A stretch of DNA of 26,268 nucleotides from a virus: positions 1 through 26,268 of the IMG/VR virus record IMGVR_UViG_3300030943_000151. One strand, 5' to 3'. Shown one piece after another: positions 1 to 24,944 of this stretch (within the stretch, counting starts at the first letter, position 1; the number at the start of each line of letters is the position of its first letter). The notes below the pieces were generated by a model that was given only the letters and a program-made list of their open reading frames with translations, was not told the DNA's origin and made no database searches. The position numbers and the translations under genes are program-made.

Positions 1-863
1 CCCCCGAATTGTAGATCGATAAGATAACTTGCTGCGCCCAGCAGGGTGGGGCGTACTAGGGCTAACTCTGTATGCATACGGTTTGTAAGTAGAAACCTCA
101 CGGAGTACTCACACAACTGTAATTAGCATACTGCTTTTGCTTCGGTTCTGTCTACAATAATCCACGCCAAAAAGACCTGCATTTTTGTTACCCCACGGGT
201 ACAGGCTACCTTACGTTTGCTCTGGCTCTGTGATGAATTGGTTTACATCATAGAACCTGTGCTATTGTTGGGTTGCCTTTTTTAAGTCTTGGTATTTGTA
301 TCTACTTTTAGATACGTCAGTAATAAAGCTGGCGCTCCCCACTACATTTTTAAGATACAAGGTACTTGTTGTTTTACCACCAAGGTTGGCTTTTGATACC
401 CTCATTGCCAATCTGACGCATCACGTCACCAGCTCGTATAACACGCCATACGAGTAGCGTTGTGTATTCTTGTGGCCTCAACAAATAGACAAGTATGTGA
501 AATGGAGGCGCTATACAGCTTTAAGCATGGGCTGCTCCTCGGGGAGTACTACCAGCTAGTACTAGGCTGCCATTGCGATGACCCATACAATGACCGTATA
601 AACCCCTTTCATTTCACATATCTGCCTACTTGTTAAGGTGTGTACCACGTTCTTTTAAGTGCCGTGGTGGGTAGAATACAACCCTGCCTACACTGAACTC
701 CACTCACAATCGAAATTATGAGCAGAAGTGGACGCACAGTGTTTGGGCAAAGTGCGCCCGCTTCCAAACTAAAAACCCCTAGGCTTTTAACGGCTTAGAG
801 GTTTAGTCATGAAGTCTCATGGCCTCTAAGCTTGCGCTTGGCCATGAGTTAGAAGTCACGATA
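1..863 (-). ncRNA. Large structured non-coding RNA (GOLLD/ROOL-like candidate), 3' end not defined
   Basis: This 0.86-kb stretch has no credible reading frame on either strand, in a phage segment that is otherwise packed with genes. A good minus-strand promoter sits at 870-898, so transcription should start near 863 and run towards position 1. Read as RNA, it contains many strong pairings: 840-848 with 816-824 (9 bp, GCAA-capped inner helix); 793-801 with 823-831 (9 bp, pseudoknot-forming); 715-722 with 703-710 around a UUCG tetraloop; 610-620 with 494-504 (11 bp perfect) extended by 626-634 with 480-488; 557-563 with 545-551; 448-454 with 433-439; and 309-315 with 298-304. Known families of this size found in phages are GOLLD and ROOL. 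I cannot confirm membership by eye, and no tRNA or tmRNA signature is seen. No clear terminator is visible, so the RNA may run past position 1. Confidence 0.62.
773..848 (-). other. 5' pseudoknot with a competing terminator-like hairpin
   Basis: Just after the predicted transcript start, the RNA arm at 840-848 pairs perfectly with 816-824 (9 bp). Its loop segment 825-831 pairs with 793-799, giving an H-type pseudoknot. The same downstream strand also overlaps a second helix, 796-804 with 773-781 (9 bp with one G-U pair), which runs into a short T tract on the minus strand (opposite the A run at 771-775). The two folds exclude each other, as in an attenuator. It could equally be just one domain of the large RNA. 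Confidence 0.5.
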
Positions 864-869
864 CCAAGA

Positions 870-898
870 ATTATAGCAAATTAGTTGTTAAATTACAA
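870..898 (-). promoter_or_regulatory. Sigma70-type promoter for the left-end non-coding RNA
   Basis: On the minus strand there is a perfect TATAAT -10 box (870-875) with a TGC extension directly upstream (876-878, the TGn extended -10 motif). A -35 box TTGTAA (893-898, four of six consensus bases) lies exactly 17 bp away. It sits just downstream of the stop of the 64-aa gene and points into the gene-free region, so it most likely drives the large RNA. Confidence 0.72.
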
Positions 899-909: not shown

Positions 910-1104
910 CTAGCCTACTATATGCTCAGGCGGTGGGATAACTCCGCTACCCTGCCACATCTTCAGAACTTCCATACGCAAGTATTGTTTACGTGTAGCC
1001 TCATATTCTGCCGTCTGACAGGCGTTATGACCGGGAATGAATAACCGCGCCATTTCGTTAGCAAAGTGGCTCTGACGTACTGTAGGTGTCTCAAATGTTC
1101 CCAT
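910..1104 (-). CDS. Hypothetical 64-aa protein
   Basis: I do not recognise this small protein. It has a polar N-terminus, a helical-looking stretch with the only two cysteine/histidine-bearing segments near residues 26-30, and a proline-rich tail (PPPEH near residue 57). There is no signal peptide or membrane segment. Its ATG overlaps the last 14 bases of the metallophosphoesterase gene, so translation is probably coupled to that gene; only a distant AAGGG is seen as a ribosome binding site. It is the last protein gene of the late operon before the non-coding RNA promoter. The compact overlap and lack of competing frames support it as real, but its role is unknown. Confidence 0.55.
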   Translation of the reverse strand: MGTFETPTVRQSHFANEMARLFIPGHNACQTAEYEATRKQYLRMEVLKMWQGSGVIPPPEHIVG

Positions 1105-2398
1105 CGTAAACTCGACCCTTAAAATAAGCTACACCATCAACTACGTCTATAGTAATCAATTGGTATCTTCCCTCTCCGTAATCCTCTATGACTGCAAACG
1201 TATTCTGATGCTTACTGTTATGAAACTTCACTGGGTAGTTGTGATCGTCTACCGCTGAGTGGTAGCCAGGTACAGGGCCATCATTCATACACGAACTGCC
1301 GAGCATCTTATAAAAGAGCTGTTTACCATCTCGGGTTGTTTGCCGTACTTCTTCGTCAGAGTGTCCATGTCCACGTATGATATTCACAGTAGGATTTGAT
1401 GCGGCTTCTTTTCGGACTGTCGCACCGGGATTACTTGAAGTGAATACTCCATGCTTAAAGACTATCGGGTTTGTGTCTCCATAGACAAACTCCGCAGCAC
1501 CATAGCCTGAGACAAAGTGAATATCTAGCTTGCCGAGGTTAGCCATGCGGTAGTAAGAGAGTACAGGGTAATCTTCGCCAGGGAGTACAAGATCGTACAA
1601 CGGTTCAATATTCCTCAGTACTTGCTTCTTTATACGGACTTCGTGATTGCTTGATACTTCTACGTGCGTAGCTTTGGGGTTATCTGCTCGCATCTGAGCA
1701 TAGAAGTTATGTATCCATCTGAGTGATGGGCCGAGTGTCTTGTGAAAGTGGTCGCTGTCCTTATCAAAATGAGACAGGGCTGACATATCCGCAAAGTCAC
1801 CGAGATTAACTGTGTATTCAGGTTGGTACTCAGCATTAATCTGCTGGATGATGTTATGCATCGGTATGTTATGTAACGGGATTAGCTCCATTTCATCTGT
1901 TACAGGGTCAATTCTTCGTCTAAAGTCCACCTGACCATCTCCATACACGATCAGCATTTTGTAGGGTCGTTCTTCTGCTATGAGCTTAGTCGGGTGAATG
2001 ATAGCCGGTTCAACTGGTGGATATAGTTCTGCGAGTTCTTCGGGTGATTTTCTAATATTACCTTTAGCATGAGGCAGCGGAATGGTGTATTCAATCTCAC
2101 CCTCTTTGTTTTTGATATACCCAACGTGAAAGCCTTGCTCAGTAAACTCTTTGGCAAGTTGTGGTGAGAGGTTATGAAGTTTGAGAACATCTGAAAAGTC
2201 GTTGCCATCAACAGGTTTCGGCGGCATCGTAATTTCTCCTAAACTTAGTTTAGATCGCCAATAGCTTTTCTTACCTTTAAGTCCGCCCTGCGTATATTGA
2301 GGGTATCGTTCCATAAGTTCAGCCGTAGTGAGATTGAGTAAGTACCAAAGTTTGTCACCTACCCATACAGGGTTTCCCACTAGTGTTTCTTCTGCCAT
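1091..2398 (-). CDS. Calcineurin-like metallophosphoesterase
   Basis: A two-metal phosphoesterase-fold protein of 435 aa. The metal-site motifs are in the family order: D-G-Q at 154-156 (usually D-x-H), LGDFAD at 199-204, SNHE at 250-253, KHG at 315-317 and GHGH at 343-346. The first motif lacks the usual histidine, which could weaken or change metal site 1. Residues 1-130 form an extra N-terminal region, perhaps DNA binding, with a basic stretch near residues 41-50. Known relatives act on nucleic acid ends or phosphodiesters, and in phages they are often of unknown role. It overlaps the 104-aa gene upstream by 19 bases and the 64-aa gene downstream by 14 bases. No clear ribosome binding site precedes the ATG, which suggests coupled translation. 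The fold is confident; the substrate is unknown. Confidence 0.82.
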   Translation of the reverse strand: MAEETLVGNPVWVGDKLWYLLNLTTAELMERYPQYTQGGLKGKKSYWRSKLSLGEITMPPKPVDGNDFSDVLKLHNLSPQLAKEFTEQGFHVGYIKNKEGEIEYTIPLPHAKGNIRKSPEELAELYPPVEPAIIHPTKLIAEERPYKMLIVYGDGQVDFRRRIDPVTDEMELIPLHNIPMHNIIQQINAEYQPEYTVNLGDFADMSALSHFDKDSDHFHKTLGPSLRWIHNFYAQMRADNPKATHVEVSSNHEVRIKKQVLRNIEPLYDLVLPGEDYPVLSYYRMANLGKLDIHFVSGYGAAEFVYGDTNPIVFKHGVFTSSNPGATVRKEAASNPTVNIIRGHGHSDEEVRQTTRDGKQLFYKMLGSSCMNDGPVPGYHSAVDDHNYPVKFHNSKHQNTFAVIEDYGEGRYQLITIDVVDGVAYFKGRVYDGNI

Positions 2399-2711: not shown

Positions 2712-2885
2712 TTATTTGTTAGAAAGCAAAGCGTTCCATACAGCCGAGATACCAGCAGCACCGGCAGCTATGAGTAGTGCTTTGAGTGTGCCAATATTAG
2801 TTACACCAGCGACACCCGTAGCGAGTGCTGCGAGGAATGCTTGTGTAAATGTTTTTGCTGAGCGAATGAGTATGTCTTTTTTCAT
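2712..2885 (-). CDS. Small holin, r1t-like
   Basis: A 57-aa membrane protein that should form lesions in the cytoplasmic membrane and release or activate the endolysin. It starts with a charged segment (MKKDILIRSAKTFTQAF), followed by two hydrophobic stretches at about residues 15-29 and 33-50 rich in Ala, Gly and Leu, and a short tail ending SNK. This layout, with the basic R-x-x-K-T-F-x-Q-A-F region before the first membrane helix, matches the r1t holin family of phages of Gram-positive bacteria. The ATG has a good site (AAAGG) that overlaps the end of the endolysin gene; the two genes are one base apart. The neighbouring endolysin supports the call. Confidence 0.78.
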   Translation of the reverse strand: MKKDILIRSAKTFTQAFLAALATGVAGVTNIGTLKALLIAAGAAGISAVWNALLSNK

Positions 2886-2886
2886 A

Positions 2887-3693
2887 CTAACCTTTCAGTC
2901 CAAGACGGACTATTATTTTAGATAACAAAACACCGAAACCATTTAAGAGTTGGGTGTCACCTGATTGCATAGCTACTTGAGCGTCGAGCTTATCGACTAA
3001 ATCATTCTTAATCTTCAAAGCTCGGGTAAGTTCTGCTACTTGAATAGTGAGGTCTTTCACTTGTTGCTCGACTTGTGGGCGTTTGTTGTCGAAGTAGTCA
3101 ATTGCTTCAATTCGTTTAGCGCGAAATGCTGCACCACCTAGCCATTGAGCATAGATAAACTCATCAACTGAGTGACCATCCCATGCTGCATGAAATGTTG
3201 CATCGTATTCCCCAGCGTGAGTTTTGTTTACATCCCAGCCACCAATTTCACTGTGACCAATTCTGAGAGTATTAGTACTGTTTTCGTTTATAAGTTCCAC
3301 TGTCTGCTCCTTTATTAGTCTTACGTTGCTTAAGTCTTCCACCCATCCGACATATTGAGAAGATGGGTCAATCTTTCTAATACGTGCCGTCATAGCATCT
3401 ATCGAGGCATACCATTCGCTCCCATAGCTCACGTTGAATGGTGATGTGTATATTCTGCCGTCTGGTGCGTGAGTTGCTACATGCCAATACGGTGTTCCGT
3501 TCTCGGTGTACGTCCAGTAACAGATAGAGTAAACATCACTAGGCGGTAGGTCTGTATGTTTGAACTGTGCAGCATCCCATGCGTCCTTTGCCGTAGCGTA
3601 GAGATGAGGTGTACCCCATACGTCCTGCTGAACTGATAGACACCAACCAGCCTTACCTTGTACGGTGAGGTTAGGGCTAACAAGTTGTTGCAT
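2887..3693 (-). CDS. Endolysin, CHAP-like peptidoglycan hydrolase
   Basis: A 268-aa lysin expected to cut peptidoglycan at the end of infection. The N-terminal domain (about 1-115) carries the pattern of a CHAP/NlpC-type cysteine peptidase: AGWCL with Cys18, then a hydrophobic core, then WHVATHAPDGRIYTSPF at 70-86 with His71 as the likely catalytic partner. Residues about 130-205 form a second, unrecognised domain (possible wall binding). Residues about 205-245 are predicted coiled coil, followed by a hydrophobic C-terminal segment. There is no signal peptide, so release would depend on the adjacent holin. A strong AAGGAG precedes the ATG. The catalytic assignment is by pattern only. Confidence 0.75.
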   Translation of the reverse strand: MQQLVSPNLTVQGKAGWCLSVQQDVWGTPHLYATAKDAWDAAQFKHTDLPPSDVYSICYWTYTENGTPYWHVATHAPDGRIYTSPFNVSYGSEWYASIDAMTARIRKIDPSSQYVGWVEDLSNVRLIKEQTVELINENSTNTLRIGHSEIGGWDVNKTHAGEYDATFHAAWDGHSVDEFIYAQWLGGAAFRAKRIEAIDYFDNKRPQVEQQVKDLTIQVAELTRALKIKNDLVDKLDAQVAMQSGDTQLLNGFGVLLSKIIVRLGLKG

Positions 3694-3967: not shown

Positions 3968-5245
3968 CTAGGCGTACTCCACCAAGATAAATGCAACTGC
4001 TGTTGCTCCTGAACCACCTGCTGTGAGTGTTCCTGTATTTGTACGAGCGCCAACACATATAGGTACGGTTCCTGCTGCTGGCGTAAATTGGTATATGAGA
4101 GTGCCTGAGTGCCCAGTGCCAATAGTCGGCATGTACGCTTGAGCCGTCTGTACTGGTGAACCTGTTATTGTCAGAGCATTGTATAGGTCTAAGAACCATG
4201 CAGCTGCTGAGGTATTACTAATATTCTGTGCAAAAACAGTTACTTTTATTGGGCGGCCATTAGTGATTACATTTGTAGTTAAACCTGTAAGTAATGTCGT
4301 AGTAATAGAAATGCTGCCGACACCCGTAATAAGTTGTCTGTAGCCTAAAACTTTGCGGTTCGGGTCACGAGGGCAAATTAAGTTTCCGAGGCTATCTGTC
4401 TTTGTCATAGGCACACTAGAAATGATAGGCAGAACCATAGTCTCTTGCCCTTGGTTCACTGAAGTAGCAGCAGCGATGTTAGAAGCACCAACAACAATGA
4501 TTGCACCCCTGAGTGTTCCTGTAGTCGTAGCAAATGATGGTGAAGCTGCGTTTGTCGTGTTGTCGTAGTACACCCATACTGCTGTACCGTCGCCGTTATC
4601 TTTGAGGTCACAGTAGACATCTTTTGAAGCGGTGAATGAGCGAGTTGTTACGGCTGCTACGGTTAGTCTTTTGCCTGATAGGTAGACAACACCTGCGGTA
4701 CAAGAAGCGTTACGAGTTGAGGCGTATGCATCACCTGACCAGACACAGCCTGAGTTAATGTGGTCAAAGACTGTTTCTGCTCGCATAGTTGAGTGAACTG
4801 CACCAGCTTCAGTTAGGGAGCCACCTATAGTAACGTTGCCAGTGGTAGTGAGGGTATCGGTTGTGAGGGATTTGTGAGTGCCGTCTTGGTTATGTTGGGC
4901 TATACCCCAATCGTAAAGGTCTTTACCCCAGTAACCCGTTGGGTTCATTTCTACTACGTCACCGATTGCACTACCTGCATCGGTTGCGCCAGCCATTCGG
5001 GTAAGTGTGCCGATTGTATTTCCCGAAACAATACCCTTCCAGTCAATCTGTGTACCAGGAATAACCTTATTACTCGTGTCAATTTTGTACGTTGAGAAAT
5101 GAACAGCTGCAACTGTAGGCCAGCCAGCAAGGTTGTCACAGGTAAGCGTTGTTGCTAGAGCAGTTCGCCCTACGGTTACTCGTGCTACGTTTGGGTTAGC
5201 TGTGTTAAATGTTGGTGATATTTTGTCTGTGATCGCGGCTGGCAT
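3968..5245 (-). CDS. Tail fibre / receptor-binding protein
   Basis: A 425-aa protein rich in Thr, Ser, Gly and Ala with the composition of a beta-rich trimeric tail appendage. The N-terminal part (about 1-140) resembles the virion-attachment segment of many phage tail fibres, including GTLTRMAGATDAGSAIGDVV and the recurring HNQDGTHK motif near residue 118. A repetitive Thr/Gly stretch (about 127-147) leads to a distal domain with several cysteines near residues 168-210 and a beta-rich C-terminal domain (about 300-425). It lies after the tail genes and before lysis genes, as expected. A good AAAGGAG precedes the ATG. The distal part is the likely host-binding region; the receptor is unknown. 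Confidence 0.75.
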   Translation of the reverse strand: MPAAITDKISPTFNTANPNVARVTVGRTALATTLTCDNLAGWPTVAAVHFSTYKIDTSNKVIPGTQIDWKGIVSGNTIGTLTRMAGATDAGSAIGDVVEMNPTGYWGKDLYDWGIAQHNQDGTHKSLTTDTLTTTGNVTIGGSLTEAGAVHSTMRAETVFDHINSGCVWSGDAYASTRNASCTAGVVYLSGKRLTVAAVTTRSFTASKDVYCDLKDNGDGTAVWVYYDNTTNAASPSFATTTGTLRGAIIVVGASNIAAATSVNQGQETMVLPIISSVPMTKTDSLGNLICPRDPNRKVLGYRQLITGVGSISITTTLLTGLTTNVITNGRPIKVTVFAQNISNTSAAAWFLDLYNALTITGSPVQTAQAYMPTIGTGHSGTLIYQFTPAAGTVPICVGARTNTGTLTAGGSGATAVAFILVEYA

Positions 5246-5256
5246 GATAACTCCTT

Positions 5257-7275
5257 TTAATTTATGTCCTGTATTCCGGCATCGACATAGATACCCACCA
5301 CGCTCGCCAAGGTGTAATCAACACCTGGGTCTACCGTACTGAGTGCATATGACCACCACCGGACATCTTTATTTACTTTTACTTTGATATACTGTGTTGC
5401 ATCGTTAAATGACACAGGCACAGCTACAATCTCGCTCCAACCTCGTAAACTACTCCATCCAGCACCAGGCTCACTCCAACCAGCTCGTGAGCTAGTCGGT
5501 ACAAAGTTTTCTGAGCCAATCTGTGATAATGGTGAGCCTTTAGTTTCTCCTGATACCGTGACAGCTATTGCACCCTGTGGACGGTAAACGGTGAGAATAA
5601 CCATGATGAGCCGACCCCACATCATGCCGTCATCAGAGAACTTAATTTGTCCTGAGTTTACCGAGGTAGAAAAAGTAACCCCGTTATCTGTGGTCAGAGC
5701 AACATAGGCAAGTTCGCATAGTTTATTATTCGAGAGAACAAGGTGATGTGTAACTCCTGAGTTATCTGTGTATAAGAGCATCCAGTCGGCAGCGATTGAC
5801 CACGGTTTGACCCACGCTCCGCCCCTGTCCATATCAAGCACCCATATTTGGTTATTCGTAGTAGAGCCAACGGGTAACGCCCAATAAGCGCGTCCATTAG
5901 CAACAAGCCCGACACACCTATCCATAGCTGAAACATTGAGTGTTTGGATTGCGTCTTGAATAGTATTTGTTAGTTTATCGGTAGAGATAAGGTTCTGAAG
6001 TTGTGGCTTTGTTCCTGTCGTCTTGAAGCCTTCACGCGATGGGTATAACAGACTATCTTTATACACAACGACACCATCAGGGCTATCTGTACCCTCCTGG
6101 CCGTTATCTTCAGTGACTTGGTAAACAATAAATTGCTGTGAACCGTAGGTGATACTCTGCGGTACGATCAGACTTCTTTTGCCACTGCCTGAAAGCCCTT
6201 GTGAAAGGACGGTGACAGTTGGCGTACCTTTGTTATCCCTAAACTGTTTGACTTTGATAGGGAGGTTTTCTGTACCACTTCCAACGATTGAATAACCACC
6301 ACCATTAGAGGGTGAAAAATCCAGTTCCCAACCAGGGTCGCCACCGCGCCAGACATAATACGGATTGTCTGGGTCACCCGTGAGCCATGGTCTACCGTTG
6401 ATAACTTCACCTCTTGTAGATTTCGGGCCAGCAGTTGAGTTATATGTAGGTAGCGGTACATTCAGCTGTTGTGGACGCGTTCCGTCATCCCTAAACGTAG
6501 TAACAGCAATATCTATACCACTTACGATGAGGTAGAGCTGTGGTTGTCCTGAGCCGTCTGTACCTTGTCCTGCGTATAGGTTCCATGACGTAGCACCGCC
6601 AGGGATAGCTCCACGGACCACATCAACGTAATCTGTTGCAGCAGCCCATAGTTCGCGGTCTTTGAGGACTGGTTTTGTAAGCGTTGCAGAGCCGTCGGTT
6701 TCACCGACAGTTGAGTTCCATGTTGTTGAGTAGTACATGTTAAATGTCGTGCCAGTTATGCCAGCAGATACGATTCCTGTAGGTACAGCAGGTGTCGTGA
6801 GTACGGTATAGGGGGTAATAACACCTGTAGAGATAGTAAGATAGCTAAGATTATCGCTACCGTTCATTACAAGGACTTTATTATTCACCTGTAAGAAGTG
6901 AGCGCGAGCAGTGTTGCTATACGTTTTCCCGTTGCATACTGTCCACGTCGTATCTTCACCCTTAGCGATATAGACTTTTGTTGTGCTAGCAACATTCTGC
7001 ATAGAAATAAGCCAGTTTTCACGAGTTGTGCCGACTACCTTTTTATAGGGGAATATCTCACCGAGTACTGTTCCGAGAGGCTGTGGGCCATATGCTATAA
7101 GAGAGGGGCGAGGACGTATTTTGCTATCTTGTACGAGTATGACGTTCTCAGCACTTTTCAATCCCTCTACAGGAGTTGAGCCGTCATCATACGCAGACAC
7201 TACGCCCTTAGAGAAGTCCTTAACAGGCAATCTCTTGATCGTAGGTACTGGTATCTGTTTAGGCGCAGCAATCAC
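5257..7275 (-). CDS. Tail nozzle / tubular tail protein (T7 gp12-like role)
   Basis: A 672-aa beta-rich protein. The beginning (residues 1-60: basic and proline-rich, then KDFSKGVVSAYDDG and a repeated pattern of short loops) and its size are typical of the large nozzle proteins of short-tailed phages, which form the lower tail tube. There are many Gly/Asn/Thr-rich turns, and no coiled coils or membrane segments. It starts with GTG, with only weak pairing upstream, six bases after the 228-aa gene, so coupling to that gene is likely. It is followed after 11 bases by the tail fibre gene. The assignment rests on size, composition and gene order more than on a recognised motif. Confidence 0.6.
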   Translation of the reverse strand: MIAAPKQIPVPTIKRLPVKDFSKGVVSAYDDGSTPVEGLKSAENVILVQDSKIRPRPSLIAYGPQPLGTVLGEIFPYKKVVGTTRENWLISMQNVASTTKVYIAKGEDTTWTVCNGKTYSNTARAHFLQVNNKVLVMNGSDNLSYLTISTGVITPYTVLTTPAVPTGIVSAGITGTTFNMYYSTTWNSTVGETDGSATLTKPVLKDRELWAAATDYVDVVRGAIPGGATSWNLYAGQGTDGSGQPQLYLIVSGIDIAVTTFRDDGTRPQQLNVPLPTYNSTAGPKSTRGEVINGRPWLTGDPDNPYYVWRGGDPGWELDFSPSNGGGYSIVGSGTENLPIKVKQFRDNKGTPTVTVLSQGLSGSGKRSLIVPQSITYGSQQFIVYQVTEDNGQEGTDSPDGVVVYKDSLLYPSREGFKTTGTKPQLQNLISTDKLTNTIQDAIQTLNVSAMDRCVGLVANGRAYWALPVGSTTNNQIWVLDMDRGGAWVKPWSIAADWMLLYTDNSGVTHHLVLSNNKLCELAYVALTTDNGVTFSTSVNSGQIKFSDDGMMWGRLIMVILTVYRPQGAIAVTVSGETKGSPLSQIGSENFVPTSSRAGWSEPGAGWSSLRGWSEIVAVPVSFNDATQYIKVKVNKDVRWWSYALSTVDPGVDYTLASVVGIYVDAGIQDIN

Positions 7276-7281
7276 GATCTA

Positions 7282-7968
7282 TTACCAGTTCACCCCTCCA
7301 CCGACCTTGACGCGCTCGAACGTGTCATTCTGTGCGGTGTCGTTATTCTGCTTCATTCGCTTCATAGCTTCAGTGGCTTCGGCGATAAGGTTCGGGTATT
7401 GGTTTTGTTTGACGGTGTTGTTTCTAGTTCTTTCAGCAGCGCAGATAAAGACTAACCAGTTAGCGTCGTCTACGGGTACGATACTGGTAGCAATAGAAAG
7501 TCGAGTAGCAGCATTATAGACAGGGCATTTAATCGTGCCACCGAACTCAGCATCAGTCGAAGCGAATATTGTGTTAAATACTAAGTCAGCACCTATTTGA
7601 GCGCAGTATTTGCCGTGTTGAGATGTTTTATTTCCCTCGTAGTAGAGTTTCAGTTCGTCAGCATTGACTATATCGTAAGTAGTATACGTTCCATCGGCAT
7701 GGTCAATACGAACAACATCACCAGGTTTATCACTTATATATAGGTAGCCAGTAGGGAGTGTATAGGTGTCAGTAGCACTAATAGTGCCTAAAGTTTCTTC
7801 AGGTGAGTAGAGGGAGTTCCAGTTAGTACCTGGTTCACGTTCCCATGTACCAATGTAGATGTTCCCAAGCTGTAGGATTTTGGTGTAGTCATCGTCGCCA
7901 AAAGCAGCAGTCGATACTTCGCCATCACTTTTAAGAATTACCGCAGCTACGAAATTGTCCGTAGTCAT
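7282..7968 (-). CDS. Putative head-tail connector or upper tail protein
   Basis: A 228-aa protein of mixed alpha/beta composition. The N-terminal half has hydrophobic strands and an IYIGTWEREPGTNW stretch near residues 37-50; a helical Asn/Gln/Lys-rich region lies near 185-215; and it ends GGGVNW. In short-tailed phages a protein of this size directly before the nozzle gene is normally the tail adaptor (T7 gp11 role). I see no diagnostic motif, so the call is by context. It is the first gene after a promoter and terminator-like hairpin at 7981-8061, so its expression may be set separately from the 1459-aa gene upstream. The ATG has a short AGG site. Confidence 0.45.
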   Translation of the reverse strand: MTTDNFVAAVILKSDGEVSTAAFGDDDYTKILQLGNIYIGTWEREPGTNWNSLYSPEETLGTISATDTYTLPTGYLYISDKPGDVVRIDHADGTYTTYDIVNADELKLYYEGNKTSQHGKYCAQIGADLVFNTIFASTDAEFGGTIKCPVYNAATRLSIATSIVPVDDANWLVFICAAERTRNNTVKQNQYPNLIAEATEAMKRMKQNNDTAQNDTFERVKVGGGVNW

Positions 7969-14015: not shown

Positions 14016-14519
14016 CTATTTTATATCACAGAAATGCTGGACGTAGTAGACAAAGTTGCCCACTCTAACTGCGCCAAAACCTGTTGTGTCATTATTTGGG
14101 TCGATCTCTGCTGCGTAATGCGGTTTGCTACTGACCCAACCTATACCACTGAATGGTGACTGATTGAGATTTGTACCATCTATATTTTCACCAGTATATG
14201 AGCAGTCATTTCCGGTAGTTTCAAATGCTTTGCTTGTACCATTATGTCCAGTTTCACCAGGTTTAATATGCCCAAAGTAATTAAACTTCGCCATATCGTC
14301 TGCTTTCCACTGAGCCGACTGGTTTAGCCGCTCATCTAACTTAAGAGGAGCAACACCTTTGGCTGCGCGTAATCTATTCGCTTGTACGAGTAATGACCGG
14401 GTACTAAATACTAGTATCTGTGGCTGTTGTACGGTAGTTGTAGGCTTGTTTGACGCATACGCAGCACCAGCACTCATAAGAATGAGCAAAGTGGCTGTAA
14501 TGGCAAATATTCGTTTCAT
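14016..14519 (-). CDS. Secreted CAP-domain (SCP/PR-1-like) protein
   Basis: A 167-aa protein starting with a clear signal peptide (MKRIFAITATLLILMSAGAAYA), so it should leave the cytoplasm. The rest matches the bacterial CAP fold: a helix with QANRLRAAKGVAPLKLDERL, then SAQWKADDMAKFNYFGH with the family's conserved His, a GENI segment, and a C-terminal YYVQHFC. Cysteines near the GND-C and HFC segments could form a disulfide. CAP proteins are secreted and mostly of unknown activity; one in a phage late region may act on the host surface or during lysis. I chose the ATG at 14517-14519. An upstream TTG would add a 24-residue extension that destroys the signal peptide. No ribosome binding site is seen, and a promoter lies 9 bases upstream. 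Confidence 0.78.
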   Translation of the reverse strand: MKRIFAITATLLILMSAGAAYASNKPTTTVQQPQILVFSTRSLLVQANRLRAAKGVAPLKLDERLNQSAQWKADDMAKFNYFGHIKPGETGHNGTSKAFETTGNDCSYTGENIDGTNLNQSPFSGIGWVSSKPHYAAEIDPNNDTTGFGAVRVGNFVYYVQHFCDIK

Positions 14520-14528
14520 GCTATATCC

Positions 14529-14557
14529 GTTATACCACAAAAAGTACAATAATGCAA
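14529..14557 (-). promoter_or_regulatory. Promoter giving a near-leaderless CAP mRNA
   Basis: On the minus strand, TGG-TATAAC (14529-14537, extended -10) with TTGCAT (14552-14557) as a weak -35 at 17-bp spacing. Only nine bases separate the -10 box from the CAP ATG, so the transcript would begin within a few bases of the start codon. This agrees with the absence of a ribosome binding site. Confidence 0.55.
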
Positions 14558-14579
14558 TATACTTCCTAACCAAGTTGTA

Positions 14580-14764
14580 AAAGTTCCTCAAAGCCGAAAT
14601 GCTTAGATTGTTTGTAAATCTTAGCTTTCGTACTGTAAAGTCTTTTACTCTTTGGCGGTCTAAACTGTTAGTACCTGAGTATGAAAAGCTATAGCCCTTA
14701 CGCTATATGCCTTTCTTTTAAGGTCATTGCCTGGGTCTTTTACCCTTTTATGGCACGTTATGCT
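14580..14764 (-). ncRNA. Structured leader or small RNA between groEL-like and CAP genes
   Basis: A 0.27-kb gap without a gene. RNA from the promoter at 14771-14779 could form a row of hairpins: a nested TGCC/GGCA and GGGT/ACCC hairpin first, CCTT/AAGG, TATAGC/GCTATA, GTAAA/TTTAC, and finally a 13-bp hairpin at 14595-14630 with an A-A mismatch. No T run follows the last hairpin. It may be a structured 5' leader for the CAP gene or a separate small RNA; nothing identifies a known class. Confidence 0.4.
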
Positions 14765-14787: not shown

Positions 14788-16317
14788 CTATTTTCCGTCA
14801 TCGACTATTAGCGCACCAGCGGTCATACCTATTATTCCGAGACTTACAGACGTAGATAAAGCTTGCTCTGTTACCATGTATGGGTCAATAATTCCCATAT
14901 CCAAAAGGTTTACACTCTGTCCGTCACGGACGTTTACGCCTTGCCATGGGTCATCTGTCAGTTGTTTCCTCGCTGTATCGGGGTCAATACTGCTATTACT
15001 CATAAGTTGTTCAAATGGTTGCTTGAGTGCTTTTGATAGTACTTCAGCTCCGTCAGTCTTTCCCTGAACAGGTGCGCGGTAGAGAGCAGTTGCTCCTCCA
15101 GGTAGTATGCCACTATCTAAGGCTGCTCGGACGGCTGCGACTGCATCATCTACTCTATACTTACGTTCTTCAATTTCAGTTTCACTTCGTCCACCAACAC
15201 GGATAGTTGCAACTTGACCGGCAAGTGCAGCAATGCGTATATTTAAGTGTTCCTCGTCTGCACCCTCTGCGGTCTTTAGCATGTCGCGGAGTAAGTTCAG
15301 TCTACCCTCTAAATCGCCACCAAGCCCGATCATGGTAGTCTTAACTGTATTCGCTATGACACGTTCGACTTTGCCAACATGTGTAATCTTTGCACTGGCC
15401 AGTGATATTGTACTGTCAGACAAAACAGTTGCGCCTGTCGCAGCTGCAATATCTTCAAGTATGTGTTCTTGTCGTTTCTCGAACCATGGAGCTACTACAG
15501 CTAAAGTCTTGAACTTACCATGTGCGCTATTCAAAACAAAGTTAGCCAGCGCATCTTCACCAAAGCCTTTCGCGAATATAACGGCCTGTGAGTACTGCGC
15601 TTCTGCAACTTGCTCCAAGAGGGGTACAATCTCCATAAATGTGGTTATATCTTTGTTTACCACGATCACCGCAGCATTCTCATATTGTGCGACACCGCTT
15701 TTTTCATCTGTAGCCATACGTGGACTTGCATAGCCAGAGGTTACATGAGTACCTTTTCCAACTTCTGCCTCTGTTTCGAGCTTACTAGAGTATTCAACTG
15801 TAATCGTACCAGCTTTACCAACAGCAAAGACAGTCTCAGCAATCAAACGACCAAGCGTTTCATCGGCTGCACTCAGTGTTGCAATCTTCGTCAATGTCTC
15901 AACATCGTTTGCTTCTACCCGTAAGTCTTTCAGGTAATCAATTACGCCACCAAGTGCATCTTCAACTTCACGAGCGAGTTGCATCGGGTTACTACCAGTA
16001 TCAATGAGCTTCTTGGCTTCGTTCATGAGATGGTAGGTTAGGACTGTGACGGTAGTCGTGCCGTCACCAACATCATTATTCATTTTATTAGCCGCTTCTT
16101 TAATAAGGTCAGCACCCGGGCGTATGTGCTCATCGCGAAGATTAACGGCTTTTGCGACAGTCACGCCGTCATGGGTGACGGTTGGTGGTTGTCCTTTGGG
16201 TGCTATAACAACATTCCGACCCTTTGGCCCCATCGTAGTTTTCACTGCGTTATATAAGGCTTCCGCACCTTTTAATAGATTAGTTCTCGCTTCATCTTCA
16301 TAGTTTACTTCGGTCAT
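14788..16317 (-). CDS. groEL: GroEL-type chaperonin (HSP60) of phage
   Basis: A group I chaperonin subunit of 509 aa, expected to form rings that fold proteins with ATP. Key features are conserved: TTMGPKGRNVVI (27-38), Asp50 in THDGV (the E. coli Asp52 position), VGDGTTT at 83-89 with catalytic Asp85, and RVDDAV near residue 390 (the Asp398 position) followed by a slightly altered ILPGGATAL. The apical domain keeps PLLEQVA and ALANFVLN, where substrate and GroES bind, but the usual PGFGDRR is PWFEKRQ. It is shorter than the usual 540 aa and lacks the Gly-Gly-Met tail. A strong GAGGAGGT precedes the ATG, which overlaps the glycosyltransferase end by 20 bases. A partner GroES homologue lies upstream. 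Capsid or tail proteins are likely clients. Confidence 0.95.
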   Translation of the reverse strand: MTEVNYEDEARTNLLKGAEALYNAVKTTMGPKGRNVVIAPKGQPPTVTHDGVTVAKAVNLRDEHIRPGADLIKEAANKMNNDVGDGTTTVTVLTYHLMNEAKKLIDTGSNPMQLAREVEDALGGVIDYLKDLRVEANDVETLTKIATLSAADETLGRLIAETVFAVGKAGTITVEYSSKLETEAEVGKGTHVTSGYASPRMATDEKSGVAQYENAAVIVVNKDITTFMEIVPLLEQVAEAQYSQAVIFAKGFGEDALANFVLNSAHGKFKTLAVVAPWFEKRQEHILEDIAAATGATVLSDSTISLASAKITHVGKVERVIANTVKTTMIGLGGDLEGRLNLLRDMLKTAEGADEEHLNIRIAALAGQVATIRVGGRSETEIEERKYRVDDAVAAVRAALDSGILPGGATALYRAPVQGKTDGAEVLSKALKQPFEQLMSNSSIDPDTARKQLTDDPWQGVNVRDGQSVNLLDMGIIDPYMVTEQALSTSVSLGIIGMTAGALIVDDGK

Positions 16318-17392
16318 TGCATACCTCCTCGAACATAGTTTTATATTTCATCCAGTTATCTTCAAGTCGCCAGTTAGTCTCTAGCTCTTTTTGAGCAGCA
16401 GCGACTAGTTTCTTGCGCTTCTCGGCATCGGTTACAAGCGTTTCTAAAGCCCCATACCACGCATCAGTTGTGTTCTCAACAGTTACGCCAGTACTTGGTT
16501 TAACACTCTTGTATGGGCCTACATTCGAGCCAAGGAAGGCTGCACCCATTCGTGTATACTCTTGCCACTTAATGTTAGACTTACCGTCTGCAAAGACTGT
16601 CTGTCGAAGTGGTGCAATGCCAATATCAAACTGCATAGTCGGGAATAGATCGGTGACGAACTTACGACCATAGATTACATCCTTCAGGTTATACCTTGCC
16701 TTTGGTAAATAGTGAGTAACTGGTACTCCATAACTAACAAAGTGGACATTCTTATGATCGTGCATCACTCGTTGCAAGGCTGGGAGTATGCCTGTTTCCT
16801 CAAAGTCTATCCAGTGAGCAGAGCCGCCAAAGTAACCTATAACTAGCTTGTCTCCGTTATCAGGCTTTGGGCTTTGGTAACTGTCGGCTATATAGTTAGG
16901 GATTACATAAATAGTTGCACCACACTCTGTACGCTTTCGGAATACATCGGCTAGGTTCTCGGTTGTAGTACAGATATATGGAGAAGTCCGGTTTATTATC
17001 TGCATAATGTGAGCATGATCGGCAGTCATGTTTGCCCAAAACGGGTTCTCTTTGTCGATAGCAAAGGTATTATCGTCATCATCGAGTATAAACTTCGTAC
17101 CATACCGCGCGTTAACAGCGGTCATAAGTGCATCCGCTCCGGCATCGGCGTGATAAGACGCAAAGACAATATCATACGAGCCTAAATGTCTACCGGCTGC
17201 TTCGACTTCTTCATTCGTAAACTCGGCAAACTCTTTGAACTTGTCGATGTCTTTTATAAAGGTTCTCTGGTAGTCAATCGTCCAGTCTACATGCTTGCGT
17301 AATTCTTCAAGTGGTCGCCAGATACGCCATATTTGTACGGCACTTTCTTTCTTTTCGTCAAATCCTACATTCGTTATTGCAAGTATACGCAT
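16298..17392 (-). CDS. Glycosyltransferase, GT-B type
   Basis: A 364-aa enzyme with a two-Rossmann-domain layout. The N-terminal domain begins MRILAITNVG and has a KFILDDDDNTF segment near residue 100. The C-terminal domain begins KLVIGYFGGSAHW, a typical donor-side strand and turn, and contains a QFDIGIAPL segment followed by SNIKWQEYTRMGAAFLGSNVGPY, the nucleotide-sugar-binding region of family 4/1-like enzymes. Phage versions modify DNA, virion proteins or host surface sugars; the substrate here is unknown. It has a very strong ribosome binding site (GAGGAGGTG), shares one base with the groES-like stop (TAATG), and overlaps groEL-like by 20 bases, so it is co-translated with both chaperonin genes. 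That placement may mean that a virion protein is both folded and glycosylated. Confidence 0.8.
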   Translation of the reverse strand: MRILAITNVGFDEKKESAVQIWRIWRPLEELRKHVDWTIDYQRTFIKDIDKFKEFAEFTNEEVEAAGRHLGSYDIVFASYHADAGADALMTAVNARYGTKFILDDDDNTFAIDKENPFWANMTADHAHIMQIINRTSPYICTTTENLADVFRKRTECGATIYVIPNYIADSYQSPKPDNGDKLVIGYFGGSAHWIDFEETGILPALQRVMHDHKNVHFVSYGVPVTHYLPKARYNLKDVIYGRKFVTDLFPTMQFDIGIAPLRQTVFADGKSNIKWQEYTRMGAAFLGSNVGPYKSVKPSTGVTVENTTDAWYGALETLVTDAEKRKKLVAAAQKELETNWRLEDNWMKYKTMFEEVCNDRSKL

Positions 17393-17661
17393 TACACCTC
17401 CTCGATGATGCCTAAGATATCTTCCTCATGTATCAGAATGTAATCTGTTTCGTTCAGCTTGAATTCGGTAGATGCGTAGGGCTTATAAACGATAACGTCA
17501 CCTGTTTTAATCCAGTCAATCTCATGCCCCACTGCAAGTACATCAGCAGCGAGAGGCTTTTCAGCGGTATTCTCAGCGACTAAAAAGCCACTCTGTGTAG
17601 TTGTTTCTTTTTGTTTCTCAACAGCGAATACTTGTTTGCCAGCAGGTTTAATGGTTTGCAT
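17392..17661 (-). CDS. groES: GroES-type co-chaperonin
   Basis: An 89-aa protein with the GroES fold pattern: a short first strand (IKPAGKQVFAVEKQKE, where the usual sequence is IRPLxDRV), a mobile-loop region around QSGFLVAEN (residues 23-31, where bacterial GroES has GGIVL), then AADVLAVGHE (usual GEVLAVGNG), GDVIVYKPYASTEFKLNETDYILIHEEDILGIIEE at the end matching the family's GDxVxF ... YLIxxExDILAxxE. It should cap the GroEL-like ring encoded two genes downstream. A GAGGT site precedes the ATG. The mobile loop differs from the host type, which may make the pair specific for each other. Confidence 0.88.
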   Translation of the reverse strand: MQTIKPAGKQVFAVEKQKETTTQSGFLVAENTAEKPLAADVLAVGHEIDWIKTGDVIVYKPYASTEFKLNETDYILIHEEDILGIIEEV

Positions 17662-18474: not shown

Positions 18475-18526
18475 AGTACCCCCGTAGCGTTCAGCCGACT
18501 ATCGGTACGCTATCAGTGGGGGTACT
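18475..18526 (-). other. Long nested hairpin after the capsid gene
   Basis: A 9-bp perfect outer stem (18475-18483 with 18518-18526, AGTACCCCC against GGGGGTACT), an inner 6-bp stem (TAGCGT/ACGCTA) and a small 4-bp apical hairpin, within the gap between the capsid gene and the 93-aa gene. No T run follows on the minus strand, so it looks more like an mRNA stabiliser or processing site than a simple terminator. Confidence 0.6.
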
Positions 18527-18540
18527 TACCCCTTTAATGT

Positions 18541-19461
18541 TTAGGCTGTAATACCAGTCTTAACAACTACGAGCCAGTTGGCGTTCAAAGTCTTAGCGAC
18601 ATAGGACGTAGCCCATGAAACTATACTGAAACGACCTGCTGGGTTGCCACTGTCAATCTTGGTGTGAGGGATGATGTACAGCTGTGCAGTATCGCCTTCA
18701 AGGTCAATCGAGCCAAAGGCTTGGTCGCCGTGAATAAAGTTACTGTAGACAGTCGTTGCACCACCGGCTTCACTCTTAGGAGCAGCACTTTCGAGAAGGC
18801 GTACACCTGAGATTTTGCCTAGCTCACCACGGTAGATCATGCTGCCGTTTTGGTAGCTGTCTACGTTGATGAACGTGCTATCTTGCTGCAAGTCGTAGCT
18901 AGTATCAGGAGAGAGTTTACCCATCCATGGAGCTGCATTGCTAGTAAGACGGCGAGCTTTGTTGCGCTTCAAAGTACGAACAGCAAGCTGAAGGTCTTTG
19001 ACTTTTAGAACATCCGATGCACTTAGAGCAGACAGAGCGGTTTTAGCGTTCTGGAACTGAACAGTTGCGCCAGTGAATAGTTCGTTGCGAACGAGAACGT
19101 CAAGCGTTTCGCGCATGTTCTGACCGACAACTTCGATTTTCTCGGCGTTGGCAGCGTCGATACCGTTTAAGGTAAGGAAGCGTGAAATCTTAACAGTCGT
19201 ACCATACTCAGCGAGCTGGGCAGATACGTTTGCAGCCGTCAGGTCTACTTCAGTTGGGTTTACACCCTGTGTGAGAGCAGCAGTTACGGTTGCGAGTGGG
19301 GTGTGTCGAGTAAACTTGACTACATCACCACCATTCTTTGGCTGAGTTCGCATTTGTGCGCCCTGCTCAAAGACACTTTCATATTCGGCACGAGATAGGA
19401 ACTTCTTCTCGTATGCGGTCTGAGCTTCTTGGGTCAGGCCAGTTGTTATTTGGACAGTCAT
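18541..19461 (-). CDS. Major capsid protein, N4-gp56 family
   Basis: A 306-aa shell protein. The family pattern is clear: an N-terminal region with EKKFLSRAEYESVFEQGA and GGDVVKFTRHTPL, then LTAANVSAQLAEYGTTVKISRFL (about residues 72-94), a helix with RETLDVLVRNELFTGATVQF (about 117-136), and a C-terminal part with GDTAQLYIIPHTKIDSGNPAGRFSIVSW and a conserved final strand. This type is the capsid protein of N4-like and many other short- and long-tailed phages. It has a good AAGGA site. It lies directly downstream of the scaffold gene, and the transcript is bracketed by strong hairpins, fitting high expression. Confidence 0.9.
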   Translation of the reverse strand: MTVQITTGLTQEAQTAYEKKFLSRAEYESVFEQGAQMRTQPKNGGDVVKFTRHTPLATVTAALTQGVNPTEVDLTAANVSAQLAEYGTTVKISRFLTLNGIDAANAEKIEVVGQNMRETLDVLVRNELFTGATVQFQNAKTALSALSASDVLKVKDLQLAVRTLKRNKARRLTSNAAPWMGKLSPDTSYDLQQDSTFINVDSYQNGSMIYRGELGKISGVRLLESAAPKSEAGGATTVYSNFIHGDQAFGSIDLEGDTAQLYIIPHTKIDSGNPAGRFSIVSWATSYVAKTLNANWLVVVKTGITA

Positions 19462-20467: not shown

Positions 20468-20770
20468 CTACTTAATGTGTTCTGCTATCAGGGCTTCGAG
20501 CCAACCTTTCACCGTGTTTAACTCACTCACTAATCGAGCATTCGCATCTACTGTCACCATAAACTTTTGCGTGTCTTTTCTATCTTCAGGGGCTATTGCT
20601 GATATAGAATTGAAGTGGTCAATCTGTAGTGATAGGTAGTCAATCGCTTGTAACATGATTGGGTGGTCTACTTGAACGGCGTTCTTCTCGACTTCAGTAG
20701 CAGTCTGCTGTTCGGCTGGTGCTTCGAGTAGGTACTCAGTACTTATTGGGTAGAGGTTGTCATCCTGCAT
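20468..20770 (-). CDS. Hypothetical acidic helical protein, 100 aa
   Basis: An unrecognised protein, acidic in the first 35 residues and helical after that (LLEAP..., then HPIMLQAIDYLSLQIDHFNS, ending VSELNTVKGWLEALIAEHIK). There are no cysteines and no membrane segment. The start overlaps the portal gene end by 11 bases and has a good AGGAG inside the portal gene, so the two are coupled. Small genes between portal and scaffold are common in phages and are often accessory head proteins. Confidence 0.6.
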   Translation of the reverse strand: MQDDNLYPISTEYLLEAPAEQQTATEVEKNAVQVDHPIMLQAIDYLSLQIDHFNSISAIAPEDRKDTQKFMVTVDANARLVSELNTVKGWLEALIAEHIK

Positions 20771-22745
20771 ATGCGGCTCCTATTCGTGCGAGTACTTCAT
20801 CTTCGTGCATGCCTTGGTTAAGGTCGTCTATAGCCTGAGCAATGACGTTATCATTCATACCGAGGGCTTTTAGTTGGTCGATAATCTGGTAATCTTCTTC
20901 GCTTAACTCGCCTTGCTCTTGTGGCTGCATTTCCTCTGACTGCATAGGCATTTGTTGTGGCATACCTTGGGGCATTTGTGGGGATTGTGGCTGCATTTGG
21001 GGCTGCTGGGCTGTCTGTGTTTGTACTGCTTGAGCCTGAGCCGTTTGCGCGTCTATTTGCTGTTGTTGCATAGCCTGAGCCTGTTGCTGTTGAGCTAAGA
21101 ACTCTTTGACATCTATGGTTAGTTCTTCAGGGTCTTGGACTGATGAAGCGGTGACCATAGCATTCCATACGCCGATAATCTTTTCCTGTGGTATGACACT
21201 TTGTAGGACTTGGCTACTACCGTATATTGTGAGTAGGCCATTGAGCGCATCGAGTTGCATTGCATCGTCATTCTTCTTACTAGTCGAAGCATCTACACTG
21301 AAGTGAAGTGCCGCAGTTGCGGTATCAAAGTCAATCATTATCTTGTCATCGTCTGACAGAAGATTAATGTCGAACTTACCCTCATCGGCTAGTTTACGGA
21401 GCTTATTTGCAGTGTCATCATCGAGCTGTACTTCTTCGACACCATGCTTCTTTGCAAAGTAGATGTTAATAGCCGTTTCTGACCAATCCTCAAACCATGC
21501 CTCAAACATCTTGCGAACGTAGTTATCATCAACTGAGATAGTGGCTTTCTGTTGATTTACTGCTGCTGGGGTCTTACCAAAGCCAGGGTTTCCTACTTCT
21601 GCGCTAATTGAAGTATCGGGTGAGTTCACAAGGTTTAAGAGCTGAGACTTTTGCAATCCATAGAGTGCTGGGTAGTTTGCAACAGCTGATGTATCAATCT
21701 TAAGTGTTTCGAGTGTAGCCTCTGGTGAGTACTTTGTTATAACAGCATGAGGGGCTAGCTTCACACCACTGAACTGACCGTACTTGACCATAGGTGGAGC
21801 TAACATAAGAGCGCGGTTGTACTGGTACATCTGCATACCGCTGTCGATAAGGTTCTGCAATCCACCGACTAGTTCAGGTATACCCCTACCCATTGGGTTA
21901 GAGCCGTCTATATCGCCGTAGCACCAGTCAATTGGTATCTTGCCGCGAGGGTCTACATTTGGTTCTGTTCGAACGATAGTTTCAAGGCGTGGGCTGAATG
22001 TGTAGAATACTGCATCAACACCCTCTTGAAAGCCAGTGATAAGCTCTACGCCTGAAACATCTAGGTTGCGCTCTAATTCGGTTGGAGTTTTGGCTTGTTG
22101 GTCTTTAGTACTGCCACCATCTTTGATTTCTTCAAGGGCTCTAATATCCCATGAGCTGTCATATTCTTCGCCACGTTCTTTAGCTTGTTTCTTAAGCTTT
22201 TTCTCACGATCTATAAGGGCTTCGATGTCCTCTTTCTGCCACCATGAGCGCACGAATACATAGCTTGATGCTTCACCGGACTTCTTGCCTGGTTGGATAG
22301 CTAGGTCGCCCCAATATATAACAGATAAATCAGGGCCAAAGCCTTTTGCATGTTTGACGAATGGGGTATAGGTAGCACAGACACCAAGTGTCAGGGCAGT
22401 TTCTAATACATTCCAGCACTTCTGTAGTAGGTCATACTCTAGGTTAGCGTTGGGTAAGATTTCAGTACGATATTTGAAGTCGGCAACAACCGGGAGCCAG
22501 TCCTCAACTTCACAGGTGACGACACCAGTAGGGAGCTGCTGAATAACACGCTTTGGTGTCTTACGAACAGTAGATGCAGTTGTACCATCGGTTACATTTG
22601 GATACGTTGGGTCTGTGTTCTCAGCTGGTCGGTTACGCGCAATGCGAACAAACTCAGGGAATGGGCGAGTAAGCAGCTCAGTGTGTCGCTTGGATGCCGT
22701 ATATTTTGTATAGAGGTTGTCTGGTTTTAGAAACGAGAATGCCAC
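20760..22745 (-). CDS. Portal protein
   Basis: A 661-aa protein forming the DNA-entry ring. The body (about 1-480) has a portal pattern: FPEFVRIARNR near the start, a conserved RGIPELVGGLQNLIDSGMQM segment (about residues 281-300), and long helical parts. The last 120 residues are extremely Gln/Met/Pro-rich (repeated QPQMQ and PQM units), then an acidic helical end. It lies between terminase and scaffold as expected. The only usable start is GTG at 22743-22745, which has no ribosome binding site and lies in the 3' arm of a strong hairpin; the frame upstream has no other start before a stop. Translation control at this point is therefore likely. Confidence 0.85.
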   Translation of the reverse strand: MAFSFLKPDNLYTKYTASKRHTELLTRPFPEFVRIARNRPAENTDPTYPNVTDGTTASTVRKTPKRVIQQLPTGVVTCEVEDWLPVVADFKYRTEILPNANLEYDLLQKCWNVLETALTLGVCATYTPFVKHAKGFGPDLSVIYWGDLAIQPGKKSGEASSYVFVRSWWQKEDIEALIDREKKLKKQAKERGEEYDSSWDIRALEEIKDGGSTKDQQAKTPTELERNLDVSGVELITGFQEGVDAVFYTFSPRLETIVRTEPNVDPRGKIPIDWCYGDIDGSNPMGRGIPELVGGLQNLIDSGMQMYQYNRALMLAPPMVKYGQFSGVKLAPHAVITKYSPEATLETLKIDTSAVANYPALYGLQKSQLLNLVNSPDTSISAEVGNPGFGKTPAAVNQQKATISVDDNYVRKMFEAWFEDWSETAINIYFAKKHGVEEVQLDDDTANKLRKLADEGKFDINLLSDDDKIMIDFDTATAALHFSVDASTSKKNDDAMQLDALNGLLTIYGSSQVLQSVIPQEKIIGVWNAMVTASSVQDPEELTIDVKEFLAQQQQAQAMQQQQIDAQTAQAQAVQTQTAQQPQMQPQSPQMPQGMPQQMPMQSEEMQPQEQGELSEEDYQIIDQLKALGMNDNVIAQAIDDLNQGMHEDEVLARIGAAYAG

Positions 22746-23143: not shown

Positions 23144-24625
23144 TTACCAATAGTTATGTATGTTTCCGCTTGTTGATACTTCATCTTCATTTATAGGTTT
23201 TTGGCTAGCTTGGTCTTGGTAGGCCAGAGCGTCGCTTGCATCATCATTCGTAGCTTTCGGGAACAGGGTCAGTTCTTCTTCTACATCTACGCAAGTGTTC
23301 ACTCCGTCCTGCTTTATGTGATAAATACCGCCATGCTCATAGCGTGGTACAAGTGCTTCAATGCGTAACTCTTTTTGTGTGCCTCCATGCTTTAGGTAGA
23401 TTATGTTTAGGTATACCCCTCTTAGCTCCATCTCATCGTTAATAGATTTCTTCAGCCCCTCAGTAAATTGGTTATCCTCTATGCCAATAACATGTAGGTT
23501 GTACCGTTGCCAGTTGGTGAACATTAAGTCAATAAGGCCGGTAGCGGATAGTTTCTGCCGGCGAGCCATGATATTCCATTTGTTTTGATCGTCTATGAAG
23601 TTTACAACTATGCCGATGTAGTCTTTGCCTAACTTGATGTCATCTTTGCCTCTTGGGTCAATGGTCATTGTGTTATAGGTTTGTTTCTCACGGACTTCTT
23701 TATAGTCACGGTACTGAAACCATGATTGCTTGAACTTACGATTTTCTTCGTCAACTGGGGTCTGCTGATAGAGAGCTGAGAACTCATAGCTACCCATGAC
23801 AGCTTTTTTCTTTAATAGTTTTTGCAGAGGGAACTTGTCGGGCCATAATGCTTCACCCTCTTTACGGTTTGGTGCATCTTCAGTAGCTATAGCTTTGTGT
23901 TTGATAATATCCCATGTTTCGTATGCTTCACCCTGCTTCTTAGCTTCTGCTGCATCTTTGAGTACTCGACCGGCTAGGTCGTCGTCATGCCAACGGGTCA
24001 GAATAAAGATAATCATTGAGTTACCTTCTTCGCGAGTTGAGAAGGTAGACTGATACCATTTGTGGCGGCTGTCACGGATTACGGGGCTATCTGCTTCTTC
24101 GCGGTTCTTAAATGGGTCATCAATGATACCAATCTTGAAACCTCTACCTGTGACTGCACCACCAACACCTGTTGCTGTATAGCCACCACCTGCGTCTGTA
24201 AGCCATTTACTCTTAGCTTTTGCATCTACTCTCAATTTAGTAGCAAACATAGCCTTATACTCATCGGACTGCATGATGTCGCGTGTCTTTTGTCCGAAGT
24301 CAGTTGCAAGTTCGTCTGAGTATGAGCTTACGATAATAGGAATGTCCGGTGACTTACCAAGTACCCATGAGGTGAACTTCTGCGTGGTCATGTCACTCTT
24401 GCCGTGGCGTGGTGGCATGAAGAACATGATGCGCACATCTTCACCAGCCATTAAGCGTTTATAGCCATCTTCAAGCTTCTTGGCTACCTCTGCGTGGAAC
24501 CATTCCATCTGATAGTTTTTATCGAGAAGAATACAGTACTCACCAAAAGTACCGTCAGTTGCTGTTTCTTTATAGAGTGCTGCGATTTGCTCTTGCTCGG
24601 ATAAGCTGTTCGGCTTGTTCTGCAC
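23144..24625 (-). CDS. Large terminase subunit (packaging ATPase and nuclease)
   Basis: A 493-aa motor protein that drives DNA into the prohead and cuts it. The ATPase domain has Walker A PPRHGKS (71-77), an ATPase strand and Walker B IGIIDDP (165-171), and the coupling motif ILTRWHDDDLAGRV. The linker ends with FSALYQQTPV. The RNase H-like nuclease has an active-site Asp in MTIDPRG, a second acid in VIGIEDNQF and the C-terminal NDDASDALAYQDQ. Length is normal. The start is GTG at 24623-24625, with AGGAG about ten bases upstream; it overlaps the small terminase gene by 56 bases, indicating coupling. Confidence 0.93.
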   Translation of the reverse strand: MQNKPNSLSEQEQIAALYKETATDGTFGEYCILLDKNYQMEWFHAEVAKKLEDGYKRLMAGEDVRIMFFMPPRHGKSDMTTQKFTSWVLGKSPDIPIIVSSYSDELATDFGQKTRDIMQSDEYKAMFATKLRVDAKAKSKWLTDAGGGYTATGVGGAVTGRGFKIGIIDDPFKNREEADSPVIRDSRHKWYQSTFSTREEGNSMIIFILTRWHDDDLAGRVLKDAAEAKKQGEAYETWDIIKHKAIATEDAPNRKEGEALWPDKFPLQKLLKKKAVMGSYEFSALYQQTPVDEENRKFKQSWFQYRDYKEVREKQTYNTMTIDPRGKDDIKLGKDYIGIVVNFIDDQNKWNIMARRQKLSATGLIDLMFTNWQRYNLHVIGIEDNQFTEGLKKSINDEMELRGVYLNIIYLKHGGTQKELRIEALVPRYEHGGIYHIKQDGVNTCVDVEEELTLFPKATNDDASDALAYQDQASQKPINEDEVSTSGNIHNYW

Positions 24626-24944
24626 TAAGACTTACTCCTAATTTTTCACCATCACTAGTTAAATCAGCACGTTCAATAATTCTTCCACGTAGTTTTACAG
24701 CTAATGTAAGTTCTTGAGTACGATTGCCAGGCTTTGCTTTGATGTCCTCTACTAGAGCATCTACAATTAAGGTATCTGTTAAACCCTTTTCATCCATCAG
24801 TTCCATAAAGCCTTTTGAGTTCAATAATTTAGATGGTGTATGTGCTGTGTTTTCACTATAGCCAGCTTCTAACATTGCCCGTGATGCATTACCACCATTT
24901 TCCACCATCTTGTCAACTGCTCTTTTTTGCTTACTAGTTGGCAT
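24570..24944 (-). CDS. Small terminase subunit
   Basis: A 124-aa DNA-recognition subunit of the packaging complex. Residues about 8-45 (VDKMVENGGNASRAMLEAGY, then a second helix) have the helix-turn-helix pattern of small terminases, and the rest is helical with an oligomerisation-type LTLAVKLRGRIIERADL segment near 77-95. It immediately precedes the large terminase and overlaps it by 56 bases. Its ATG overlaps the last 11 bases of the 37-aa zinc-finger-like gene. The ribosome binding site is weak, so coupling is likely. Confidence 0.82.
   Translation of the reverse strand: MPTSKQKRAVDKMVENGGNASRAMLEAGYSENTAHTPSKLLNSKGFMELMDEKGLTDTLIVDALVEDIKAKPGNRTQELTLAVKLRGRIIERADLTSDGEKLGVSLSAEQAEQLIRARANRSTL

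Follow-up and report, generated by a model that had tools for sequence, protein, structure and literature searches.

The minus strand of positions 1-863 of the window, by which we mean the whole 26,268-base linear virus record of an uncultured phage that was analysed, is likely to specify a structured RNA of very large size. The reading that we favour, with reasonable confidence, is an orphan giant phage RNA, separately promoted and of the same sense as the late genes, that would act as a folded molecule. The absence of genes, the very strong fold, the strand-specific tetraloops and the promoter match behind this reading are computed. Broadly, the RNA would belong with GOLLD, ROOL and the ICP1 RNA in kind, with no detectable relationship to any of them.

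Gene map and folding strength

The window covers the late region of a phage, whose structural and lysis genes are read from the minus strand; large virion proteins are also encoded there. The genes referred to in the text are as follows:

24570-24944, minus strand: small terminase
23144-24625, minus strand: large terminase
20760-22745, minus strand: portal-like protein
18541-19461, minus strand: major capsid protein
17392-17661, minus strand: GroES
14788-16317, minus strand: GroEL
14016-14591, minus strand: secreted CAP-domain protein (PF00188), among the late genes
2887-3693, minus strand: endolysin-like protein (phrog_12298, E = 3e-20; tblastn matches to annotated endolysins and lysin A)
2712-2885, minus strand: r1t-type holin of 57 aa (PF16945, E = 5.6e-6, 0.1 bit under the cut-off)
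1091-2398, minus strand: metallophosphoesterase (phrog_20266, E = 7e-23)
910-1104, minus strand: 64-aa reading frame without a family match, the last one upstream of the RNA

In the middle of the structural genes (14788-17661), the phage encodes a diverged GroEL together with GroES and a glycosyltransferase-like protein, and phage MW202497 carries GroEL and glycosyltransferases near its terminase. Residues 156-303 (148 aa) of the product of 3968-5245 are 63% identical to a protein of the same phage; the remainder is unmatched, and such an isolated stretch suggests exchange of a receptor-binding domain. The closest terminases in bacterial or archaeal genomes (50% identity) were found in two metagenome-assembled genomes of ≈1.2 Mb, which hints at hosts with small genomes, with misbinning a possible explanation.

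Left of position 910 we found no credible gene. The longest frame within 1-863 is 58 aa long and none has family support, so that the gene-free 0.86 kb described in the original prediction was borne out.

This stretch folds far better on its minus strand than expected by chance. Compared with shuffled sequences, the 863-nt stretch had a folding z of -6.8; the value was -7.3 in a set of 120 shuffles, none of which was equally low, and -7.9 for positions 1-900. Among 30 stretches of 863 nt, with both strands considered, the best one outside 1-863 reached a z of -3.1, and the other stretches of the window averaged -0.1 (sd 1.26). Base pairs with p > 0.9 numbered 147, or 2.5 times the 60 ± 32 seen in shuffles, and the longest helix had 17 pairs (9.7 ± 2.0 in shuffles). 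The strong structure that had been proposed for the region is thus evident. Long non-coding gaps in related phages often fold somewhat above chance, several of them with z between -2 and -5, so that some of this signal may be nothing unusual.

The plus strand also folds well (z = -5.5), as would be expected of a DNA-level element rich in inverted repeats, such as a replication origin or a packaging (cos or pac) site. We consider such an element quite improbable: there are no iterons or tandem direct repeats, the terminase genes are far away on this map, and the stable RNA tetraloops described below occur on the minus strand only, which a DNA-level element does not predict.

Promoter, strand and predicted architecture

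Predicted hairpins on the minus strand of 1-863 are capped by GCAA, GUGA and UUCG, and none of the plus-strand hairpins carries such a loop. Three special tetraloops compare with a shuffle mean of 0.18, and none of 120 shuffles reached three, a control that only partly removes the bias introduced by the energy bonuses that the folding model gives to these loops. None of 58 other stretches had more than one. The folding energy of the minus strand is also 20 kcal/mol better than that of the plus strand.

No other site in the window combines 10/12 matches, a perfect -10 and a TGn as the sigma-70-like promoter at 898-870 does, in agreement with its earlier description as the best promoter here. 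It lies ≈10 nt ahead of the first predicted helix. Two other sites equal it in TATAAT or in TGn, and promoter-like sites are fewer in the window than in shuffles, so that the promoter is weak evidence by itself. Taken together, the minus-only tetraloops, the better minus-strand energy and the extended -10 promoter point to an RNA that starts at ≈862-865 and runs leftwards. The predicted features are:

870-898, minus strand: sigma-70-like promoter with an extended -10 (TGn), TTGTAA-17-TATAAT, 10/12 matches
1-863, minus strand: putative giant structured non-coding RNA; no gene, z -6.8 to -7.9, promoter just upstream
816-848, minus strand: 5' hairpin of 9+4 pairs with a GCAA (GNRA) loop at 832-835 (p = 1.00/0.98)
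793-831, minus strand: candidate for an alternative H-type pseudoknot, a 9-bp helix 823-831/793-801 with 842-848/816-822
761-814, minus strand: stem-loop of 4+5+8 pairs (p = 0.92-0.94)
730-759, minus strand: 8-pair hairpin (p = 0.95)
699-726, minus strand: 12-pair hairpin 699-710/715-726 with a UUCG loop at 711-714 (p = 0.89)
644-668, minus strand: 6-bp hairpin (p = 0.93)
476-638, minus strand: central long arm (p = 0.95-1.00; inverted repeat I1)
476-492/622-638, minus strand: central-arm helix of 17 pairs including G-U
494-504/610-620, minus strand: central-arm helix, 11 bp, perfect (p = 1.00)
512-519/593-600 and 525-532/581-588, minus strand: further central-arm helices
428-458, minus strand: hairpin of 8+4 pairs (p = 0.98/0.87)
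298-315, minus strand: perfect 7-bp hairpin (p = 0.92)
224-257, minus strand: hairpin of 6+5 bp, its base extended by 203-210/271-278 (p = 0.97-1.00)
70-131, minus strand: 3' hairpin domain with a GUGA (GNRA) loop at 98-101 (p = 0.72-0.80)
24-859, minus strand: predicted 5'-3' closing helices 24-30/853-859 and 40-47/681-688 (p = 0.89/0.73)

The perfect 11-bp helix that had been picked out from the sequence at 494-504/610-620 was recovered unchanged, its proposed 9-bp extension was bettered by the 17 pairs of 476-492/622-638, and the UUCG-capped stem of 8 bp grew to 12. The folded RNA would have three parts: four stable hairpins that make up a 5' block, an arm of 160 nt in the centre, and a 3' block. 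Its GNRA loops are candidate docking elements. Near the 5' end, the H-type pseudoknot (842-848/816-822 with 823-831/793-801) had no equivalent in 100 shuffles; it competes with the nested fold, which the energy model predicts to be more stable, and we regard it as a mere candidate.

The first 160 nt contain four independent hairpins, and the closing helices do not reach significance by themselves (at least seven confident long-range pairs were present in 16 of 40 shuffles), both of which would suit not one RNA but a cluster of several distinct small RNAs with terminators and promoters. Such a cluster has, in our estimation, little chance of being correct, because the minus strand has only one good promoter and one weak terminator-like site, and because the central arm, with p = 0.95-1.00, extends over 163 nt.

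Homologues and known RNA families

No homologue of 1-863 was found by blastn against phages and plasmids or by an exact-pattern scan of viral contigs, in which an exact 19-mer match in one contig was judged to be chance. Relatives of the phage itself were identified through its proteins. By the phosphoesterase these were L104 (66%), L106 (52%), L105 (49%) and L193-L197 (42-44%); by the terminase, among the matches listed, L008 (69%), followed by others at 49% and less. The 66% identity of the metallophosphoesterase to its counterpart in G016 (L104) exceeds the ≈30% of the other shared proteins, and the gene has probably moved horizontally. The flanks and whole records of these relatives, searched by blastn, nhmmer and covariance models, contained no homologue of 1-863; L008 and L002, the closest terminase relatives among the matches listed, are short fragments that end before the RNA locus. 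With metallophosphoesterase (alone and in the alignments A2/A3), terminase (alone and in the alignments A1/A4) and GroEL as guide proteins, relatives were listed, none with similar flanking DNA. Sequence and single-sequence covariance searches of 380 small bacterial genomes (from the phylum of G036) likewise gave no homologue, and the best short blastn match there (L406) lay inside a reading frame and was rejected. The single-sequence covariance models R1 and R2 matched only the window, and antisense pairing to the other window genes did not exceed chance-level matches.

The original prediction assigned the RNA to GOLLD or ROOL, to a distant relative of these, or to a new class, and proposed covariance models as the check. 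Up to E = 10, cmscan placed the 1-863 region in no Rfam family. That the tool had not failed is seen from the ICP1 sequence, in which the identical setting gave weak matches. Directed covariance searches were empty for GOLLD (RF02032), with a model of 416 positions and the 3' part of the RNA possibly past base 1, and for ROOL (RF03087), for which the control genomes gave no match either. Neither covariance models nor ARAGORN found a tRNA array, a group I or group II intron or a member of another Rfam family. The window contains no tRNA, and hence no tRNA island, the common though not universal location of GOLLD. The check thus came back negative; what stood of the assignment was a very large structured RNA running leftwards from ≈863, after the lysis genes, and what was not supported was membership in GOLLD or ROOL.

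In size (863 gene-free nt in a phage late region, where GOLLD exceeds 800 nt in phages or prophages) and in its lysis-side position, the region fits published traits of these families (PMC12286853). A very divergent GOLLD or ROOL member is nevertheless extremely unlikely, given the lack of a covariance match at any reported threshold (control genomes also being unmatched in the ROOL search) and of a tRNA. GOLLD resembles the 1-863 RNA in being longer than 800 nt and phage-encoded with expression tied to lysis, during which it rises (PMC12286853), and differs by the covariance match and tRNA island that 1-863 lacks. In a Lactobacillus brevis prophage, GOLLD was dispensable for phage production, as cited in PMC7567579. 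ROOL, which assembles into a homo-oligomeric nanocage, is likewise a large, multi-helix, phage-linked RNA; the 1-863 RNA is longer than the 574-position ROOL model and has neither its covariance match nor a tRNA island. The long non-coding RNAs lnc001 and lnc002 of phage K (PMC9241854), also of unknown function, adjoin tRNA genes and were shown by RNA-seq; they were compared here only through blastn against the phage collection.

The nearest functional parallel is the RNA of the Vibrio phage ICP1, whose most abundant transcript is a ≈800-nt non-coding RNA in a 1-kb ORF-less space at the lysis cluster (PMC7567579), between ORF139 and ORF140. The two share their size, an ORF-less gap beside the lysis cluster, the absence of a nearby tRNA and of an Rfam family above its cut-off. 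They differ in phage group and have no sequence similarity, and the ICP1 RNA folds more weakly (z = -3.0). Whereas the ICP1 RNA was shown by RNA-seq, the 1-863 RNA is predicted from sequence.

Corresponding loci in related phages and a proposed role

Two distant relatives have structured regions in the corresponding place. In MW202692 (L103), the late genes are on the minus strand, with the endolysin at 4533-5462, and positions 3165-3525 at the late-gene end fold with a z of -5.3 in the late sense and -2.8 on the other strand, including a helix of ≈20 pairs; only tiny hypothetical frames are annotated there. In G025 (L418; terminase 44%), positions 2340-2770 have a z of -5.7 in the late sense and -4.9 on the other strand; this region adjoins a holin-like gene and has a TTGACA box ahead of it. 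Both regions have position and sense in common with 1-863, are shorter and do not share its sequence. No sequence similarity to the 1-863 RNA was found in the G025, L103, G017 or ICP1 RNAs. A class of such RNAs is a lead, not proof, because other gaps in these phages also beat chance and the two regions were picked after viewing about two dozen gaps.

Other candidate counterparts were rejected: the gaps at 41.9-42.9 kb of MW202497 and in G016 are promoter regions or small genes, the good fold of G019 38441-39062 is at least partly due to tRNA, and G029 4330-4880 contains small genes and terminators. At 18488-18560 of the related phage contig L414 (G019), a tRNA-Thr lies beside a tyrosine recombinase at the contig end, perhaps an attachment region.

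These loci also bear on whether 1-863 is a structured cis-acting 5' leader, attenuator or antitermination region of genes left of the window. The window stops at base 1 with no convincing terminator seen before it, and the early genes of related phages do have structured non-coding leaders that contain promoter-like sites, as at L105/G017 6541-7350, on the minus strand, where several TATAAT-like boxes alternate with hairpins (z = -6). We nonetheless regard a leader as unlikely, since the structured region lies at the late-gene end in both relatives with context, 0.86 kb would be an extreme length for a leader and, more weakly, the fold brings both ends together within 1-863.

We return to a giant RNA that would act as a folded molecule. 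A promoter of its own, of the sigma-70 type with an extended -10 (898-870), would drive leftward transcription of an RNA of ≈0.85 kb, with a predicted 5' end at ≈862-865 and a 3' end that may fall beyond the window. The RNA has the same sense as the late genes and lies directly behind the lysis cassette; it would be produced late in infection, together with the lysis genes or after them. It would most likely be a trans-acting structural RNA that functions through its own fold, as GOLLD, ROOL and the ICP1 RNA do. We infer its transcription, timing, 3' end, tertiary folding and function from the computed features. A bolder and rather doubtful extension is that giant ornate RNAs of this sort form a new class in phages, which may self-assemble as GOLLD and ROOL do and is fixed downstream of the late and lysis genes in a phage group with small-genome hosts, its position and sense conserved and its sequence evolving too fast for recognition.

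To our knowledge, only a few giant phage RNAs have been described, none with a settled function. A further one would offer new material on what such RNAs do during lysis, and, because its sequence is unrelated and it too adjoins lysis genes, like the RNA of ICP1, it would suggest that phages have repeatedly adopted a large late-sense RNA at this place and that its presence is no accident of a single family.
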